Shown piece after piece: positions 5,823 to 20,636 of a stretch of 64,000 bases of DNA (positions within the stretch are counted from its first letter, which is position 1; each line of letters opens with the position of its first letter). The DNA lies in the NCBI RefSeq assembly GCF_014083985.1, contig NZ_CP046907.1, forward strand, positions 2,398,001 to 2,462,000, in the 5' to 3' direction. Source of the DNA: Streptomyces sp. SCUT-3. GTDB lineage: Bacteria; Actinomycetota; Actinomycetes; Streptomycetales; Streptomycetaceae. The position numbers were made by a program, and so were the translations under genes. The notes under the pieces were generated by a model, which was not told where the DNA came from, searched no databases, and saw nothing but the letters and a program-made list of their open reading frames with translations.

Positions 5823-7226
5823 TCACCCGACGGCGGGGCGGTCCGGCCCGGTGCCCGCCGGCAGGCGGTCGTAGGCGCGCTCGACGTGGGAGAGGGCGTC
5901 CAGCAGCTCGGAACTGGTCACGTCCCGGCGGGTCCCGCCCCCGGCCACCGCGCCGATCGGCATGGACCCGGTGGACGCCCACCGCAGCCTGCCCCCCGAG
6001 TCGATGTAGCTGCGGGCCCGCCCCCGGTTGTCGGCGTGCAGGCAGTACGGGACGTCGAGGTAGCCCCGGGCGAACGCGCGCACCATCGCCCGGCCCACGT
6101 CGGGGTGGAGGTCGAGGACCGCCTCGACCAGCAGGCGGGCCTCGGCCGCGATGCCGGTGTCGGGCACCGGCGGGTGCTCCCGGCCGGCCGCGTCCTCGGC
6201 GGCGGCGGCCGCGAACTCCAGGGCCTCCACGTTCTCCTCGACCGTGGGGATGCGCCACGCCTCGGCCGCCGTCTTGACGATCAGCCGCTCCGCGCCGGTG
6301 CGCACGGCCAGCTCCGCCGCGTCGCGCAGCAGCGCCAGGGCGCCGTGGCGGGTGCGCGGGAACTTGCCCATGTAGGTGTAGAGCACCACGTGCCAGTCCA
6401 CGTCCGGCAGGAACTCTCCGGCCAGGGCGCGCAGGGCGGCCAGGCCCTCCGCGTCCTGCTCCGGGTCGGTCTGCTGGGAGAAGCTGAGCGAGATGCTGCG
6501 CAGGCCGTGGCTGCGGAAGAACATCCCTTCGAGGAGGGTGAGGGCGACCAGCAGGCCGGGCGGGCACATCTGGCCCATCATGCAGCCGCCGAAGCTCTCC
6601 AGGTGCGGTTCGAACCCGTGCTCCCGCAGTTCGGCGAACCGCTCGCAGGACCGCGCCCAGCTCTCCGTCGCCACGGCCAGGGGGACCCGGCTGTAGGGCA
6701 GGCAGTACGAGACCGGGCCGCCCTCGGTGGCGTCCAGCCCGGCCGCGGCCATCGCGGCGAAGATGTCGTCGGGCAGCGGCGAGCCGTGGCGGACCTGCAC
6801 CGGGAAGCGGGGGCCGCGGATGCCGTCCGTCACCGCCCGCGTGACGTCCGGGCCGTGGGTGACCAGCGGGTAGCCGTTGAGCGGGGTGCCCGCGGCGGCG
6901 GCCCGCGCGACCGAGGCGTAGTCCTTCACCCGCGTGTAGCTGTCCAGGGTGACGGTGCCGACCGCGGCCGCCCGGGCCCGCCGCACGGCGGCCAGCCCCC
7001 GTCGCATCTCCCGGGGGTCGTCGAACCCCATCCGGGGCTGCACCACCAGCGGCGCGGACCGGAGCAGGTTCCCGACGGCCGCGGCGAACGCCCCGTCCGC
7101 CGGGCGCCCGGGCCGGGTGTCCCGGGCGGGCGGCCCGGACGGGCCCGGGACGGGGACGGGGACCGGGCCGGTTCCGGTGCCGGTTCCGGTGCCGGTTCCG
7201 GTGCCGGTTCCGGTGCCGGCGGTCAC
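5823..7226 (-). CDS. glmE: Glutamate (methylaspartate) mutase, E subunit
   Basis: A 467-residue large subunit of B12-dependent glutamate mutase, which converts L-glutamate to (2S,3S)-3-methylaspartate together with the S subunit. Marks include QPRMGFDD near the N-terminus of the TIM barrel, NGYPLVTHG, FPVQVRHGSPLPDDIF, ATEGGPVSYCLPYSR and the C-terminal CLHADNRGRARSYID. The GTG start overlaps the S-subunit stop as GTGA. The first 30 residues are (Thr-Gly)n then Pro-Val repeats encoded by a hexanucleotide tandem repeat, so the true start could be further in. The likely role is to supply methylaspartate to NRPS module 6, whose code is Asp-like. Confidence 0.9.
   Translation of the reverse strand: MTAGTGTGTGTGTGTGTGTGPVPVPVPGPSGPPARDTRPGRPADGAFAAAVGNLLRSAPLVVQPRMGFDDPREMRRGLAAVRRARAAAVGTVTLDSYTRVKDYASVARAAAAGTPLNGYPLVTHGPDVTRAVTDGIRGPRFPVQVRHGSPLPDDIFAAMAAAGLDATEGGPVSYCLPYSRVPLAVATESWARSCERFAELREHGFEPHLESFGGCMMGQMCPPGLLVALTLLEGMFFRSHGLRSISLSFSQQTDPEQDAEGLAALRALAGEFLPDVDWHVVLYTYMGKFPRTRHGALALLRDAAELAVRTGAERLIVKTAAEAWRIPTVEENVEALEFAAAAAEDAAGREHPPVPDTGIAAEARLLVEAVLDLHPDVGRAMVRAFARGYLDVPYCLHADNRGRARSYIDSGGRLRWASTGSMPIGAVAGGGTRRDVTSSELLDALSHVERAYDRLPAGTGPDRPAVG
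7141..7216. repeat. CCGGTTCCGGTG tandem repeat inside the mutase E gene
   Basis: About five and a half units alternating CCGGTT and CCGGTG, preceded by looser GGGGACGGGG repeats. It encodes the Thr-Gly and Pro-Val runs at the start of the E subunit. Similar short CCGG-based arrays occur at 3118-3172 and 20232-20300. Confidence 0.75.
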
Positions 7227-7792
7227 TGCGTGCCCACCCGTCCGGCCGGGGCGGGTTCCAGGGCGCGCACGAACTCGACGAACAGCTCCGGGGCCGCGTC
7301 GTCCTGGAAGACGGCGTCGAACCCGGCGGCCACCAGCGCGCGGCCCGCCTCCTCGTCCCCGCCGCGCACGCCGAGCTTGCCCCCGATGACCGCGGGGACT
7401 CCGCGCAGTTCCGGCCGCGCCCGCAGCCTGCCGATCAGCCTCTCGCCGTCCGCGCGGCCGTGGCCGTTGACGGTGCTGATCACCAGCAGGTCGGGGCGGA
7501 GCGCGGCGCACTCGCCGATCAGCAGCTCGTCCGGGACGCACGCGCCGAGGTTGACGACCTCGCACCCGGCCTCCTCCAGCAGCAGCTGGAGGAAGACGAG
7601 GTTCCAGGTGTGCGCGTCGGAGGAGACGCTGCTCAGGAGCACCCTGCGGGCTCGGCCGGGCGCCGGGTCCGCGGGGCCGGTCCTCGCCGCCGCGGATCCG
7701 GCGTCCGGCACGAGGGGGCCGGCGTCCGGCACGACGGGGCCCGCCTCCGGGAGGAGGGGGCCGGCGTCCGGCACGACGGGGTCGGTCTTCAT
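7223..7792 (-). CDS. glmS: Glutamate (methylaspartate) mutase, S subunit (B12-binding)
   Basis: A 189-residue cobalamin-binding small subunit. The Rossmann-like B12 domain starts near residue 50 (RRVLLSSVSSDAHTWNLVFL), followed by CEVVNLGACVPDELLI, LLVISTVNGHG and VPAVIGGKLGVRGG. The cobalt-ligand motif is normally DxHxxG; here it reads DAHTWN, keeping Asp and His but with Asn for Gly. The first 45 residues are a VPDAGP/LPEAGP repeat not found in classical GlmS (about 140 residues), so the ATG at 7792 may be too early. It overlaps the E subunit (GTGA) and follows the 58-residue ORF after 23 bp. Confidence 0.88.
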   Translation of the reverse strand: MKTDPVVPDAGPLLPEAGPVVPDAGPLVPDAGSAAARTGPADPAPGRARRVLLSSVSSDAHTWNLVFLQLLLEEAGCEVVNLGACVPDELLIGECAALRPDLLVISTVNGHGRADGERLIGRLRARPELRGVPAVIGGKLGVRGGDEEAGRALVAAGFDAVFQDDAAPELFVEFVRALEPAPAGRVGTQ

Positions 7793-7817: not shown

Positions 7818-7994
7818 TCAGCCGCAGCCGCCCGCGGTGTCGTGGTCGTAGGCACCGACCAGATCGATCACCGCGGCGGGCACGCCGGCGAGGGGGTCGG
7901 GGAACCAGTCGTCGTCGACCTCGATGCGGCCGGGCGGGAGGGAGTCGGGGAGGACCGGCCCCGGTGCGGCGGCGTCCTGCTGTGCGTTCGTCAT
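7818..7994 (-). CDS. Unknown 58-residue acidic peptide ending GGCG
   Basis: I do not recognise this small gene. Its ATG overlaps the stop of the DsbA-like gene (ATGA), so it should be translationally coupled, and glmS follows after 23 bp. The N-terminal half is Ala/Pro-rich. The core EVDDDWFPDPLAGVPAAVID is acidic and hydrophobic, and the end reads GAYDHDTAGGCG with a single Cys. Third-position GC fits real coding DNA. It could be a small structural partner of the mutase or isomerase, or a peptide precursor; no RiPP maturation enzyme is visible nearby. Confidence 0.6.
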   Translation of the reverse strand: MTNAQQDAAAPGPVLPDSLPPGRIEVDDDWFPDPLAGVPAAVIDLVGAYDHDTAGGCG

Positions 7995-8653
7995 GCCTTC
8001 TCCCGCCCCTCCTGCGCGGCGGCTCTGGCCGCGGCCTTCTCCAGGGCCGTCGCCAGGGCGTCGAGGAACGCGTCCAGGCGGTCGACGCCCCAGAAGCGGT
8101 GCGGGCCGACCTTGAAGTAGGGGATGCCGAAGACGTCGTCGTCGTAGGCGGCGGCGAGCGCGTCGGCGCCCTCGGCCCGGATCTCCGGGTCGTCGACGGC
8201 GGAGACCATGGCGTCTCCGTCGAAACCGGCCGCCTCGGCGATCCGGTGCAGGACCTCCGGCTCGCAGACGTTCTCGCCCCGCTCCCAGCGGGCCTCGGTC
8301 ACCGCCCGGTAGAAGTCCTGCGCGCGGCCGAGCCGGCGGGCCCGCAGCCAGGCCAGGTGCGGCAGCTCCCACCAGGGGTCGATGTCGACCGGCCAGGTCA
8401 TCCGGTAGCCGAACTGCTGGGAGAGGCGCTTGGTGTCCTGGAGGATGTACAGGTGCTTGGCCTTGGACATCTGGACGTAGTGCATGCCGGAGCCGCGTTC
8501 CTCCAGGGCGGCCTCGGTGACCTTGTCCGGTCCCCAGAACGGGTAGTAGTCGATGACCTCGGGGGCCTGCGGGAACCGCTCCTCGAGCCGGCGCAGCGCC
8601 ATCCAGCTGAAGGGGCTGCGGAAGGAGAAGTAGAGCCTCGGCGGACGCCTCAT
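7991..8653 (-). CDS. DsbA-family / 2-hydroxychromene-2-carboxylate isomerase-like protein
   Basis: A 220-residue thioredoxin-fold protein of the GST-kappa/HCCA-isomerase group. The N-terminal LYFSFRSPFSWMALRRLE carries the family's S-P-x-S element in place of a CxxC, so a redox role is unlikely. The helical insert includes RMTWPVDIDPWWELPHLAWL, and the late FGIPYFKVGPHRFWGVDRLD is the cis-Pro strand region. HCCA isomerases shift double-bond geometry using glutathione. In a polyene-making cluster the natural inference is isomerisation of an acyl double bond, possibly before ring closure. ATGA overlaps bind it to the hotdog gene before it and the 58-residue ORF after it. Confidence 0.8.
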   Translation of the reverse strand: MRRPPRLYFSFRSPFSWMALRRLEERFPQAPEVIDYYPFWGPDKVTEAALEERGSGMHYVQMSKAKHLYILQDTKRLSQQFGYRMTWPVDIDPWWELPHLAWLRARRLGRAQDFYRAVTEARWERGENVCEPEVLHRIAEAAGFDGDAMVSAVDDPEIRAEGADALAAAYDDDVFGIPYFKVGPHRFWGVDRLDAFLDALATALEKAAARAAAQEGREKA

Positions 8654-14995: not shown

Positions 14996-15256
14996 TCATG
15001 CCTGCCAGCCGGCGTGCTGGGCCACCACGTCGTGGACGGCCCGCAGGTTGCCCATGTTGGGCAGCTCCGACTGCGGGATGTCGATCCCGTACTTCTTCTC
15101 GATCCGGGCCAGGATCTCGATCGCCCGCAGCGAGTCCGCCTCGTGCTCCTCCACGAACGAACTGGTCTCGGTGATCTCCTCCGGCTCGACCTCCAGCACC
15201 TCGGCGACGATCTCGCGCAGCTCGTCGAGGTGGTCGGCGTTCACGGCCTGGGACAT
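14996..15256 (-). CDS. Acyl carrier protein, copy 1
   Basis: An 86-residue acidic carrier protein. The phosphopantetheine Ser lies in EEHEADSLRAIEILARIEKK (near residue 42). This version has EADSL rather than the FabD-type DSL(D/E). It carries the growing chain for the KS/CLF, KR and DH. Protein and DNA are nearly identical to the ACP at 20376-20636: only Ser/Thr at residue 2 and Ala/Thr at residue 7 differ. It lies between the DH and KS genes. Confidence 0.95.
   Translation of the reverse strand: MSQAVNADHLDELREIVAEVLEVEPEEITETSSFVEEHEADSLRAIEILARIEKKYGIDIPQSELPNMGNLRAVHDVVAQHAGWQA
15001..15252. repeat. Near-identical ACP duplication (partner 20381-20632)
   Basis: These 252 bp match 20381-20632 with two mismatches by direct reading. 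The matching block covers nearly the whole ACP gene and stops at its start region. That points to a recent copy or gene conversion rather than old paralogy. Confidence 0.9.
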
Positions 15257-17599: not shown

Positions 17600-18607
17600 T
17601 CACCAGCGCCTGGTCTCCCCGAAGAACCCGTCGACGGACACGGCCTCGCCGGCCTCCAGGGCGGCGCGGTGGACGTGCATGCCGACCGCCAGGTCCAGCA
17701 CGCCGAGCCCGAAGGGGGAGAAGATCACCGGCCGCCCGGCGTCCACCTCCACCTGCCCGTCCATCACCTGGGCCAGGGTCCCGGTGACGAAGTCGCGGTT
17801 GCCGCACTGCTGCTCGGCCAGGTGCGGGGAGGTGGAGGCGGTCAGGCAGTGGTCGACGTCGTCGACGACGTTGCAGGACTCCAGGACGATGTCGGGGCCG
17901 ACGTCCCGCAGCGAGACGTTGAGGACGACCTGGCCGGGGGCGAAGGTGCCGGGGCGGGTGATGTACGGCGCGGCGGCGGTCGTCGCCAGGACCACCACGT
18001 CGGCGTCCGCGACGGCGGCGTCCAGGTCGTCCGCGGTCTCCGTCCGGAGGCCGAGCCCGTCGGCGGCGAACGCGGCGAGCGCCTCCGCGTACTTCGGCTC
18101 CCGGTCGTGGACCGCGCAGACGTCCACCGTCCAGTTCTCGGCCGCGAAGAACTCCAGGATGTTGCGGGCGATGATGCCCGCGCCGACCACCGCGAGCCGG
18201 CGGGCGTGCCGGCCGCCGGTCAGCGTCCGGGCGGCCAGGACCGCGGACGCGGCCGTGCGGGCCGCGCTGATCTGGGACGCCTCCAGGCAGGCGAACGGGT
18301 AGCCGGTGCGGTAGTCGTTGAGCAGCAGCGCGGCCGACGCCCGCGGGATGCCCTCCTCGATGTTCGCCGGGAAGCTGGCGATCCACTTGATGCCGGCGAC
18401 GGAGTGCTCGCCGCCGAGGTAGGCAGGGAGCGCGATGATCCGGCTGTCGGGCTTGTCGGGGAAGCGCAGGAAGTAGCTGTTCGGGTTGACCGTGTCGCCC
18501 CGGTCGTGGGCGAGGTAGGTGCGGCGCACCTCCTCCACGATCTGCGGGCGGGTGCGGCCGATGACGCGGCGGGCGGTCTCGCCGCCGATCACGTGGAAGT
18601 CGAACAT
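17600..18607 (-). CDS. sbnB: SbnB-like dehydrogenase for 2,3-diaminopropionate synthesis
   Basis: A 335-residue member of the ornithine cyclodeaminase/mu-crystallin family, with the NAD-binding RRLAVVGAGIIARNILEFF near residue 140 and PNSYFLRFPDKPDSRIIALP in the substrate half. SbnB oxidatively splits N-(2-amino-2-carboxyethyl)-L-glutamate into 2,3-diaminopropionate and 2-oxoglutarate. Assignment to SbnB rather than ornithine cyclodeaminase rests on its place directly after the SbnA-like gene, whose stop lies 1 bp from its ATG. The product fits the diamino-acid code of NRPS module 5. Confidence 0.88.
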   Translation of the reverse strand: MFDFHVIGGETARRVIGRTRPQIVEEVRRTYLAHDRGDTVNPNSYFLRFPDKPDSRIIALPAYLGGEHSVAGIKWIASFPANIEEGIPRASAALLLNDYRTGYPFACLEASQISAARTAASAVLAARTLTGGRHARRLAVVGAGIIARNILEFFAAENWTVDVCAVHDREPKYAEALAAFAADGLGLRTETADDLDAAVADADVVVLATTAAAPYITRPGTFAPGQVVLNVSLRDVGPDIVLESCNVVDDVDHCLTASTSPHLAEQQCGNRDFVTGTLAQVMDGQVEVDAGRPVIFSPFGLGVLDLAVGMHVHRAALEAGEAVSVDGFFGETRRW

Positions 18608-18608
18608 G

Positions 18609-19646
18609 TCAGCCTTTCAGGAGCAGTCCGGCGTCGGCGCCGGCGTCCGGGCGGTCGTCCGTACCGCGGGGGGAGGAGGGGGCCGGGGCGGAGGGGGCGG
18701 GGACGGAGGGGCCGAAGCGCTCCTCCACCCAGGCGTCGTCGTAGACGGTGCTCAGGTACCGCTCGCCCGTGTCGGGGGCGAGGGCGACCACGGAGGAGCC
18801 GGGCGGGATCTCGCCGGCCTTGCGGACGACCGCGGCGAGCACGGACCCGGTGGACCCGCCCAGGGCGATGCCGCGCTCCCGGGCGACGGACCGGCACATC
18901 CGCACCGCCTCGGCCTCGGGCACCATGACGACCTCGTCGACGGCCTCGGGCCGGCACAGCTCCGGCCTGCGGCTGGTGCCCAGCCCCGGGATGTGCCGCC
19001 GGCCCGGCGGGAACCCGAAGGTCACCGACCCGGGGGTGTCCACCGCGACGATCCGGGTCCGCGGGGACCACTGCCGGAAGTACTCGGCGCAGCCCATCAG
19101 GGTGCCGGTGGTGCCGGCGCCGACGAACAGCTGGTCCACCTCGGGCAGTTCCTCGAGGACGGCGGACGCGGTGCGCTCGTAGTGCACGCGCGGGTTGGCC
19201 GGGTTGGCGTACTGGTTGGGCCAGACCAGGGAGGGGTCCTCGCGGAGGCGGTCCTGGATGTAGTCGATGCGGGACTGGAGGAACCCCCCGTTGGCGTCCC
19301 TGCGGTCCACCCGGACGACCTCGGCGCCGAAGGCCCGCATGAGCGCGGTGTTGTGCGGCGCGGTGTTGGGGTCGGTCACGCAGGTGAAGGAGTAGCCCTT
19401 GGCGGCGCACACCGAGGCCAGGGCCACTCCCAGATTCCCGGACGAGGATTCGATGACCCCGCTGCCGGAATCCAGCAGGCCCCATTTCTCCGCGTCCTCG
19501 ATCAGCCCCACGGCCGTCTTGAGTTTTATGGAGCCGGCGGGGTTGAACCCCTCCAGCTTGAGGAAGACCTGAACATCCGGAACGAGTTCGTCGAAGCGCA
19601 GGAACAGACGATCGAGCACCAGGTCGTGAGCATTCTCGTAGATCAC
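18609..19646 (-). CDS. sbnA: SbnA-like PLP enzyme, diaminopropionate pathway
   Basis: A 345-residue PLP enzyme of the cysteine-synthase fold. FLKLEGFNPAGSIKLKTAVG holds the PLP lysine (SIK), ESSSGNLGVALA the substrate loop, and GAGTTGTLMG and GGSTGSVLAA the phosphate-binding glycines; VTDPNTAPHN and WPNQYANPANPRVHY are SbnA-like. SbnA joins O-phosphoserine and glutamate to give N-(2-amino-2-carboxyethyl)-glutamate. The start is set at the GTG at 19646, which begins VIYENAHDL where SbnA proteins begin; an upstream ATG would add nearly 100 unrelated residues. The Pro/Ala C-terminal tail of about 30 residues is unusual. Confidence 0.88.
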   Translation of the reverse strand: MIYENAHDLVLDRLFLRFDELVPDVQVFLKLEGFNPAGSIKLKTAVGLIEDAEKWGLLDSGSGVIESSSGNLGVALASVCAAKGYSFTCVTDPNTAPHNTALMRAFGAEVVRVDRRDANGGFLQSRIDYIQDRLREDPSLVWPNQYANPANPRVHYERTASAVLEELPEVDQLFVGAGTTGTLMGCAEYFRQWSPRTRIVAVDTPGSVTFGFPPGRRHIPGLGTSRRPELCRPEAVDEVVMVPEAEAVRMCRSVARERGIALGGSTGSVLAAVVRKAGEIPPGSSVVALAPDTGERYLSTVYDDAWVEERFGPSVPAPSAPAPSSPRGTDDRPDAGADAGLLLKG

Positions 19647-19752
19647 TTTTCCGAGCGCCTTTCTGGGCGCCGGGCCGGGCCGCGTGCCCGCGGGTTCGCG
19701 GTGGCACGCGGCCGGTCCGTCGTACGTCGAATTTGGGGTCGAACACCGGAAG

Positions 19753-20334
19753 TCAGCCGGTGGACGCGCTCCTGCGGGGATTGCTCCTGACGTAGTGGCG
19801 GGTGGCCATTGCCGTGAACACCCCCCACACCAGGAACGACATGTCCCAGACGAACAGGTGCCACAGCAGCGGCTTCCAGTCGGGCGGGGAGTCGGGGGTG
19901 ACGACGCCCAGGGCGACCAGCGCCTGCACGGCGACCAGCACACCCCCGTAGGCGATCAGCACCGCCGACCCTCCCCACCCGGCGAGGACCATCAGGAGGC
20001 GGGGGAAGACCCGCCCCCACCGCTGCACCAGCGCCAGCGCGAAGACCCCGCCCGCGGCCTTGGCCGCGCCGGTGATCCAGACGACCGCGATGAGCCCGCC
20101 GTCCCGTTCCCGGGCCATCTCCTCGAGGGTGCCCCCGAGGGTGTCCAGGAGGAGGGTCCCTCCTGCCGCCCAGTAGAAGCTGACCAGGGCGAACGCCACG
20201 GCCACGACCGCGGCCGCCCAGCCCGTCCATGCCGTGGAGCCGGTCCTGCCGGAGCCGGTCCCGCCGGTGGCCCCGGTGCCGGTGGCCCCGGTGCCGGGGT
20301 GTTCCTGCCGGCCGGGTCGTGTCGCAGCATCCAT
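19753..20334 (-). CDS. DUF3995-type membrane protein
   Basis: A 193-residue protein with four probable transmembrane helices: around 42-65 (AAAVVAVAFALVSFYWAAGG), 82-105, 112-140 and 155-175 (LLWHLFVWDMSFLVWGVFTA). The pattern SFYWAAGGTLLLDTLGG and DMSFLVWG resemble DUF3995 proteins, whose function is unknown. The first 30 residues are a Gly-Thr-Gly-Ala repeat from a CCGGTG minisatellite. It lies between the SbnA-like and second ACP genes on the same strand, so it is probably cotranscribed. A role in export or immunity is only a guess. Confidence 0.7.
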   Translation of the reverse strand: MDAATRPGRQEHPGTGATGTGATGGTGSGRTGSTAWTGWAAAVVAVAFALVSFYWAAGGTLLLDTLGGTLEEMARERDGGLIAVVWITGAAKAAGGVFALALVQRWGRVFPRLLMVLAGWGGSAVLIAYGGVLVAVQALVALGVVTPDSPPDWKPLLWHLFVWDMSFLVWGVFTAMATRHYVRSNPRRSASTG

Positions 20335-20375: not shown

Positions 20376-20636
20376 TCAGGCCTGCCAGCCGGCGTGCTGG
20401 GCCACCACGTCGTGGACGGCACGCAGGTTGCCCATGTTGGGCAGCTCCGACTGCGGGATGTCGATCCCGTACTTCTTCTCGATCCGGGCCAGGATCTCGA
20501 TCGCCCGCAGCGAGTCCGCCTCGTGCTCCTCCACGAACGAACTGGTCTCGGTGATCTCCTCCGGCTCGACCTCCAGCACCTCGGCGACGATCTCGCGCAG
20601 CTCGTCGAGGTGGTCGGTGTTCACGGCCTGGGTCAT
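20376..20636 (-). CDS. Acyl carrier protein, copy 2
   Basis: An 86-residue ACP whose phosphopantetheine Ser lies in EEHEADSLRAIEILARIEKK, two residues different from the copy at 14996-15256. It sits next to the MbtH and NRPS genes rather than the KS genes. One inference is that it presents the finished acyl chain to the first C domain, while copy 1 serves chain building. Equally, it may only raise ACP dose. GGAG lies 6 nt before the ATG. Confidence 0.94.
   Translation of the reverse strand: MTQAVNTDHLDELREIVAEVLEVEPEEITETSSFVEEHEADSLRAIEILARIEKKYGIDIPQSELPNMGNLRAVHDVVAQHAGWQA

Follow-up and report, generated by a model that had tools for sequence, protein, structure and literature searches.

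A small coupled ORF in a Streptomyces type II PKS cluster encodes the detached C-terminal tail of a DsbA/HCCA-isomerase-like enzyme and may provide its thiol cofactor

Comparison with related loci shows that a 58-residue ORF lying directly downstream of a DsbA/HCCA-isomerase-like gene of Streptomyces sp. SCUT-3 encodes the C-terminal tail of that enzyme, here a peptide of its own that is translationally coupled to it. The peptide ends in the nine residues DHDTAGGCG, which are, as judged from the aligned homologues, the conserved C-terminus of a cis-trans isomerase family found in type II PKS polyene/cinnamoyl clusters. The tail peptide probably supplies the cysteine thiol that related enzymes obtain from glutathione. 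The window referred to below is the whole stretch of 64,000 nucleotides that was analysed (contig NZ_CP046907.1, positions 2,398,001 to 2,462,000), and coordinates are those of the window.

The small ORF and its partner isomerase

The elements of the window that concern the tail and its enzyme are the following:

7991..8653, minus strand: DsbA-like / HCCA-isomerase-like / GST-kappa-like polyene isomerase, 220 aa (PF01323, E=1.3e-22; profile matches to 3fz5 and 1yzx)
8615..8617, minus strand: codon of isomerase Ser13 (SPFS), which pairs with the HCCA isomerase and GSTK1 Ser in the HMMER alignment
7818..7994, minus strand: 58-aa small ORF, detached isomerase C-terminal tail protein (translation; fused, adjacent and remote counterparts)
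7991..7994, minus strand: ATGA, isomerase stop overlapping the small-ORF start, translational coupling (sequence; the -3 overlap recurs in relatives)
7821..7847, minus strand: conserved-tail codons, residues 50-58, DHDTAGGCG, with a free Cys-Gly carboxylate end (column counts of 66 fused tails; codon positions)
7854..7922, minus strand: residues 25-47, EVDDDWFPDPLAGVPAAVIDLVG, second conserved segment and candidate docking element (alignment of the adjacent-split ORFs)

The translation of the small ORF (7994-7818, minus strand) is MTNAQQDAAAPGPVLPDSLPPGRIEVDDDWFPDPLAGVPAAVIDLVGAYDHDTAGGCG. As the original prediction had it, the peptide is acidic (9 D, 1 E, 1 R and no K) and ends in GGCG, and its ATG shares bases with the TGA of the DsbA-like gene (ATGA, 7994-7991). 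A Shine-Dalgarno-like GGGAG stretch is located 5 nt upstream of this ATG, and an AGGAGG farther 5'. The ORF is confirmed as real and ATGA-coupled to the DsbA-like gene, and is not an orphan. The glmS gene follows with its ATG at 7792, which leaves a gap of 25 bp after the small-ORF stop and not the 23 bp first given. Profile searches of the small ORF matched none of the Pfam families and gave no significant NCBIfam match, in agreement with the earlier statement that it resembles no known family. It does fit the tail-family pattern [DE]-x-x-[HTS]-A-G-G-C-G at the very C-terminus (DHDTAGGCG-stop), in a gene placed directly after the isomerase.

The isomerase matches the DsbA-like thioredoxin domain PF01323 above the cut-off (E=1.3e-22), and its profile matches structures 3fz5, 2imd, 1yzx and 3rpn, 3fz5 being 2-hydroxychromene-2-carboxylate isomerase and 1yzx human GSTK1. 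Its SPxS motif carries Ser, not Cys, at the thiol-activating position and aligns with LSPFS in HCCA isomerase and with LSPYS in GSTK1; this Ser is invariant or nearly so across all isomerase cores. The proline of FG[IV]P and the WGxDR motif also align with GSTK1 and HCCA isomerase and are conserved among the cores. The enzyme shares with the HCCA isomerase/GSTK family the DsbA-like thioredoxin fold, a Ser replacing the DsbA Cys, the aligned cis-Pro region and WGxDR. However, known members of that family use free glutathione while here a Gly-Gly-Cys-Gly protein end is attached or present in trans, in a genome where glutathione synthetase was not detected. The Streptomyces sp. SCUT-3 genome contains one isomerase and one such tail. 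An AlphaFold model obtained from three sequences (L002, L003 and the window) was poor (pLDDT 48.6) and was discarded.

Fused, adjacent and tail-less isomerases

In the first relatives, L002 and L003, the DsbA-like protein itself ends in the motif (..IGAYDHDTAGGCG-stop). With at most three mismatches, the tail motif was found in 7 of 396 family genomes, always at the end of the isomerase gene or just after it; the reversed-pattern control gave no match in the same 396 genomes, which sets the ORF above chance. Isomerase cores were collected by profile search from 18 of 395 class genomes, 79 of 396 family genomes and plasmid loci, while viral contigs yielded no further relatives. The comparison included 98 distinct complete cores: 68 carry a fused tail, 11 (window included) are followed by an adjacent small ORF and 19 are tail-less. 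Eight of the 11 adjacent ORFs start at an identical -3 overlap (ATGA or GTGA), and those of L025, L046 and L052 begin 15-193 nt past the isomerase stop. Fused forms occur in both deep clades of the isomerase tree, the adjacent-split forms are found within the clade of the window and the tail-less forms are confined to one part of the other clade. The ORF is hence conserved in homologous clusters, and the proposal that it is a small partner of the DsbA-like protein is borne out in a more precise form: the peptide is that protein's own C-terminal tail, split off.

At one locus, L023 (minus strand, ends 2205-2472), three further tandem copies of the tail DNA (..DDGHAGGCG-stop) follow the real stop, one of them reading ..GGCA.

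Constraint on the tail

Column counts were obtained from 66 aligned fused tails. Counting back from the C-terminus, Gly is observed at -1 in all 66, Cys at -2 in 66, Gly at -3 in 65 and at -4 in 66, Ala at -5 in 63, His, Thr or Ser at -6 in 66, and Asp or Glu at -9 in 66. Departures from this consensus are few: one AGACG and, at -5, one V, T, G and P each. No such conservation is seen in the linker, where none of the 20 positions before -9 has a residue shared by half of the sequences. At the DNA level, variation in the tail is almost entirely limited to third codon positions: all four Gly codons are used at -4, and the first two positions of each codon change little or not at all. As judged from this pattern, the tail is under strong protein-level constraint. 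No fused tail has any residue past the last Gly, an indication that the free carboxylate has a role.

This strictness bears on the possibility that the tail is a docking or recruitment tag, which would bind the ACP, the KS/CLF or another cluster protein and keep the isomerase in the PKS complex, the Cys being structural. An acidic conserved segment precedes the tail in the split ORFs and resembles a docking element: DPLxGIPxxLlxxVG is kept in most adjacent-split ORFs, and residues 25-47 of the window peptide are a candidate for such a function. Type II PKS genes are also found beside the tail in every locus whose context was checked. However, a tag of this kind would tolerate residues after the Gly as well as Cys substitutions, neither of which occurs in the 68 fused tails, and the tail is carried by many unrelated sequences (linkers, small ORFs, DUF6269). 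We therefore regard docking as an unlikely function for the tail.

A redox or regulatory role, in which a disulfide of the tail Cys with mycothiol or with a core residue, the ICD Cys at about position 133, would switch or protect the enzyme, also appears improbable. The distribution of the ICD Cys is in its favor: this residue is present in all 11 split systems, 46 of 66 fused systems and none of 16 tail-less systems. But this association is lost after correction for relatedness (2-3 independent pairs), and the disulfide reading is weakened because 20 of the 66 fused-tail enzymes have no core Cys. It would also leave unexplained why the terminal Gly never varies and why the motif is always at the very C-terminus. 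Core Cys133 and residue 88 were considered for co-variation with the tail; the counts are suggestive but lose significance when relatedness is taken into account, and the idea was rejected. Two features of the tail-less enzymes can be added (L006 core numbering, positions 88 and 124): none of the 16 that were analysed has the ICD Cys, and the residue that precedes the conserved Trp, elsewhere mostly hydrophobic, is R, H, D, N or Q. These differences correspond to few independent events.

Remote tails and DUF6269

The 19 tail-less isomerases are spread over 16 genomes or plasmids. That they are true exceptions, with no tail within 20 kb, was rejected when a genome-wide pattern search found the tail elsewhere. 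Tail-less isomerases occur in 14 of the 396 genomes, and 13 of these contain the HAGGCG-stop pattern, 2-55 kb away or on another contig. These remote loci are coding-like small ORFs whose products (about 41-127 aa) terminate in ..DxGHAGGCG, and both tail-less plasmid clusters include a 75-aa protein annotated DUF6269 with the end ..GLDEGHAGGCG. A tail in trans is thus carried by 15 of the 16 records with a tail-less isomerase, often by a protein of the Pfam family DUF6269. The exception, G132, has a tail-less isomerase in which no HAGGCG ORF was found; it counts against the tail model, and its assembly is fragmented (820 contigs). The association between tail-less isomerase and free-standing tail ORF in the 396-genome sample (Fisher p about 2e-21) is a description rather than a strict probability because related genomes are not independent. 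Further HAGGCG-stop matches, L137-L141, are spurious recurrent chance matches whose frames are not coding-like.

These remote ORFs suggest that action in trans is a general case. They also bear on a further reading, namely that the ORF and the isomerase form one fused protein through a -1 frameshift at the ATGA, without any separate peptide. In 8 of 11 systems the overlap does lie in the -1 frame. However, the ORF starts 15-193 nt past the stop in L025, L046 and L052, and kilobases off or on another contig in 15 records, so that a frameshift is very unlikely.

DUF6269 (PF19784) is present in 12 of the 396 genomes. Its free-standing small proteins ending in ..DEGHAGGCG, which accompany tail-less isomerases, resemble the window peptide in the last residues only: the latter does not match the PF19784 model, remaining below the 25-bit threshold of the curated profile, and a search of its own genome for PF19784 gave no match. 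Two genomes, G112 and G335, have an isomerase with its own tail; their DUF6269 copies have lost the Cys-Gly and end in ..GHAGG-stop and ..GHADV-stop. In three others, G139, G188 and G210, a different small ORF bears the tail, which is missing from the DUF6269 copy. That the Cys-Gly end is lost where it is redundant supports a functional equivalence of the fused and free forms. In G068, where the isomerase was not detected, the DUF6269 protein (L168/L175) is two residues longer (..HAGGCGRG). The intact DUF6269 tail ORF of G193 (L136), in a genome where no isomerase was detected, is unexplained and counts against the tail model. An ACC gene about 80% identical to that of the window is located nearby in G193, possibly as a cluster remnant. 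A search of the open-access literature returned no account of such a tail or of DUF6269, and earlier notice is possible.

Gene cluster and related polyene systems

The window cluster combines type II PKS and NRPS genes: ketosynthases/CLFs, a dehydratase, a ketoreductase, ACPs, an SbnA/SbnB-like pair, NRPS modules and glutamate mutase. The SbnA/SbnB-like pair (17600-19943, minus strand) suggests 2,3-diaminopropionate. Together with glutamate mutase (3-methylaspartate) and the NRPS, it suggests a polyene- or cinnamoyl-acylated peptide product. The KR/DH and SbnA/SbnB-like genes are flanked by two ACP genes (14996-15256 and 20376-20636, both minus strand) with near-identical N-terminal halves. 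The glmE and glmS products have low-complexity N-termini (7120-7230 and 7700-7790, minus strand) with GTGTGT..PVPVPVP and VVPDAGPLLPEAG.. units, encoded by short tandem DNA repeats.

Two roles advanced in the original prediction do not survive the comparison and can be set aside almost completely: an accessory subunit of the glutamate mutase (glmS/glmE), suggested by the position of the ORF directly upstream of glmS, since a search of 14 related loci at 1e-8 found no glmS/glmE homologue (the adjacent small ORF is present in L118 and L119) and the tail accompanies the isomerase in every arrangement; and a precursor or scaffold of a ribosomal peptide product, suggested by a small acidic ORF with a C-terminal GGCG, since the same tail ends an enzyme in 68 of 98 relatives, no peptide-modifying enzyme was found among the annotated neighbouring genes, and the combination of a dedicated modifying enzyme with a separate precursor gene is not observed.

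For related polyene isomerases, a change of a double bond from E to Z before 6-pi electrocyclization has been proposed from gene content, in the descriptions available (PMC6510318, PMC9381841, PMC9321520). The window shares with the cinnamoyl/polyene type II PKS isomerases Sky27, YsfG, GlaV and EpcL the KS/CLF, KR, ACP, DH and NRPS neighbourhood as well as this proposed chemistry, but adds the SbnA/SbnB-like pair and the glutamate mutase to what is described for their clusters. Compared by description only, the two sets also differ in the tail, which goes unmentioned in the available descriptions of those enzymes, where one, YsfG, is called 'glutathione-dependent' (PMC9381841), whereas here it is near-universal and sometimes a separate protein. 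If the YsfG label comes from an assay with added glutathione, it would count against a built-in thiol, unless YsfG is without tail.

A gene-encoded thiol cofactor

In the genome of Streptomyces sp. SCUT-3, a search for glutathione synthetase (GshB) found no match while mycothiol ligase (MshC) gave a full, strong one. The host bacterium thus appears unable to make glutathione, and the gene content argues against free glutathione as the cofactor of the window isomerase. The relatives of this enzyme, HCCA isomerase and kappa-class glutathione transferase, use glutathione, gamma-Glu-Cys-Gly. A glutathione-dependent fold, an organism without glutathione and an invariant ..Gly-Gly-Cys-Gly-COOH are most simply read as an enzyme that brings its own Cys-Gly. 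Overall, we consider it probable that the peptide is an isomerase tail which, in cis or in trans, replaces the Cys-Gly of glutathione; the link between tail and isomerase is shown by the comparisons and the chemistry is inferred.

Under this model, the peptide would occupy the place that glutathione takes in GST-kappa/HCCA isomerases, and its terminal Gly-Cys-Gly-COOH would mimic the Cys-Gly part of that cofactor. The tail thiol, activated by the active-site serine, would add reversibly to the conjugated polyenoyl-ACP delivered by the type II PKS; rotation about the C-C bond followed by elimination would give a Z double bond, and this bond may prepare 6-pi electrocyclization or the final polyene geometry. 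Such a cofactor would act in cis in the fused enzymes and in trans in the split systems. We lean, with some reserve, towards the wider proposal that a ribosomally encoded, dissociable peptide is the thiol cofactor of the enzyme, a genetic substitute for glutathione in non-glutathione organisms that can be fused, split off or relocated as a free-standing protein, the latter being the function of DUF6269.

If correct, this proposal would explain how a glutathione-type isomerase works in mycothiol-using actinobacteria, and would give DUF6269, a Pfam family of unknown function, a role. The annotation of such clusters would be corrected, and some isomerases may be inactive when cloned without the small protein. 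The cofactor would then be a peptide tail that evolution shifts between genes.
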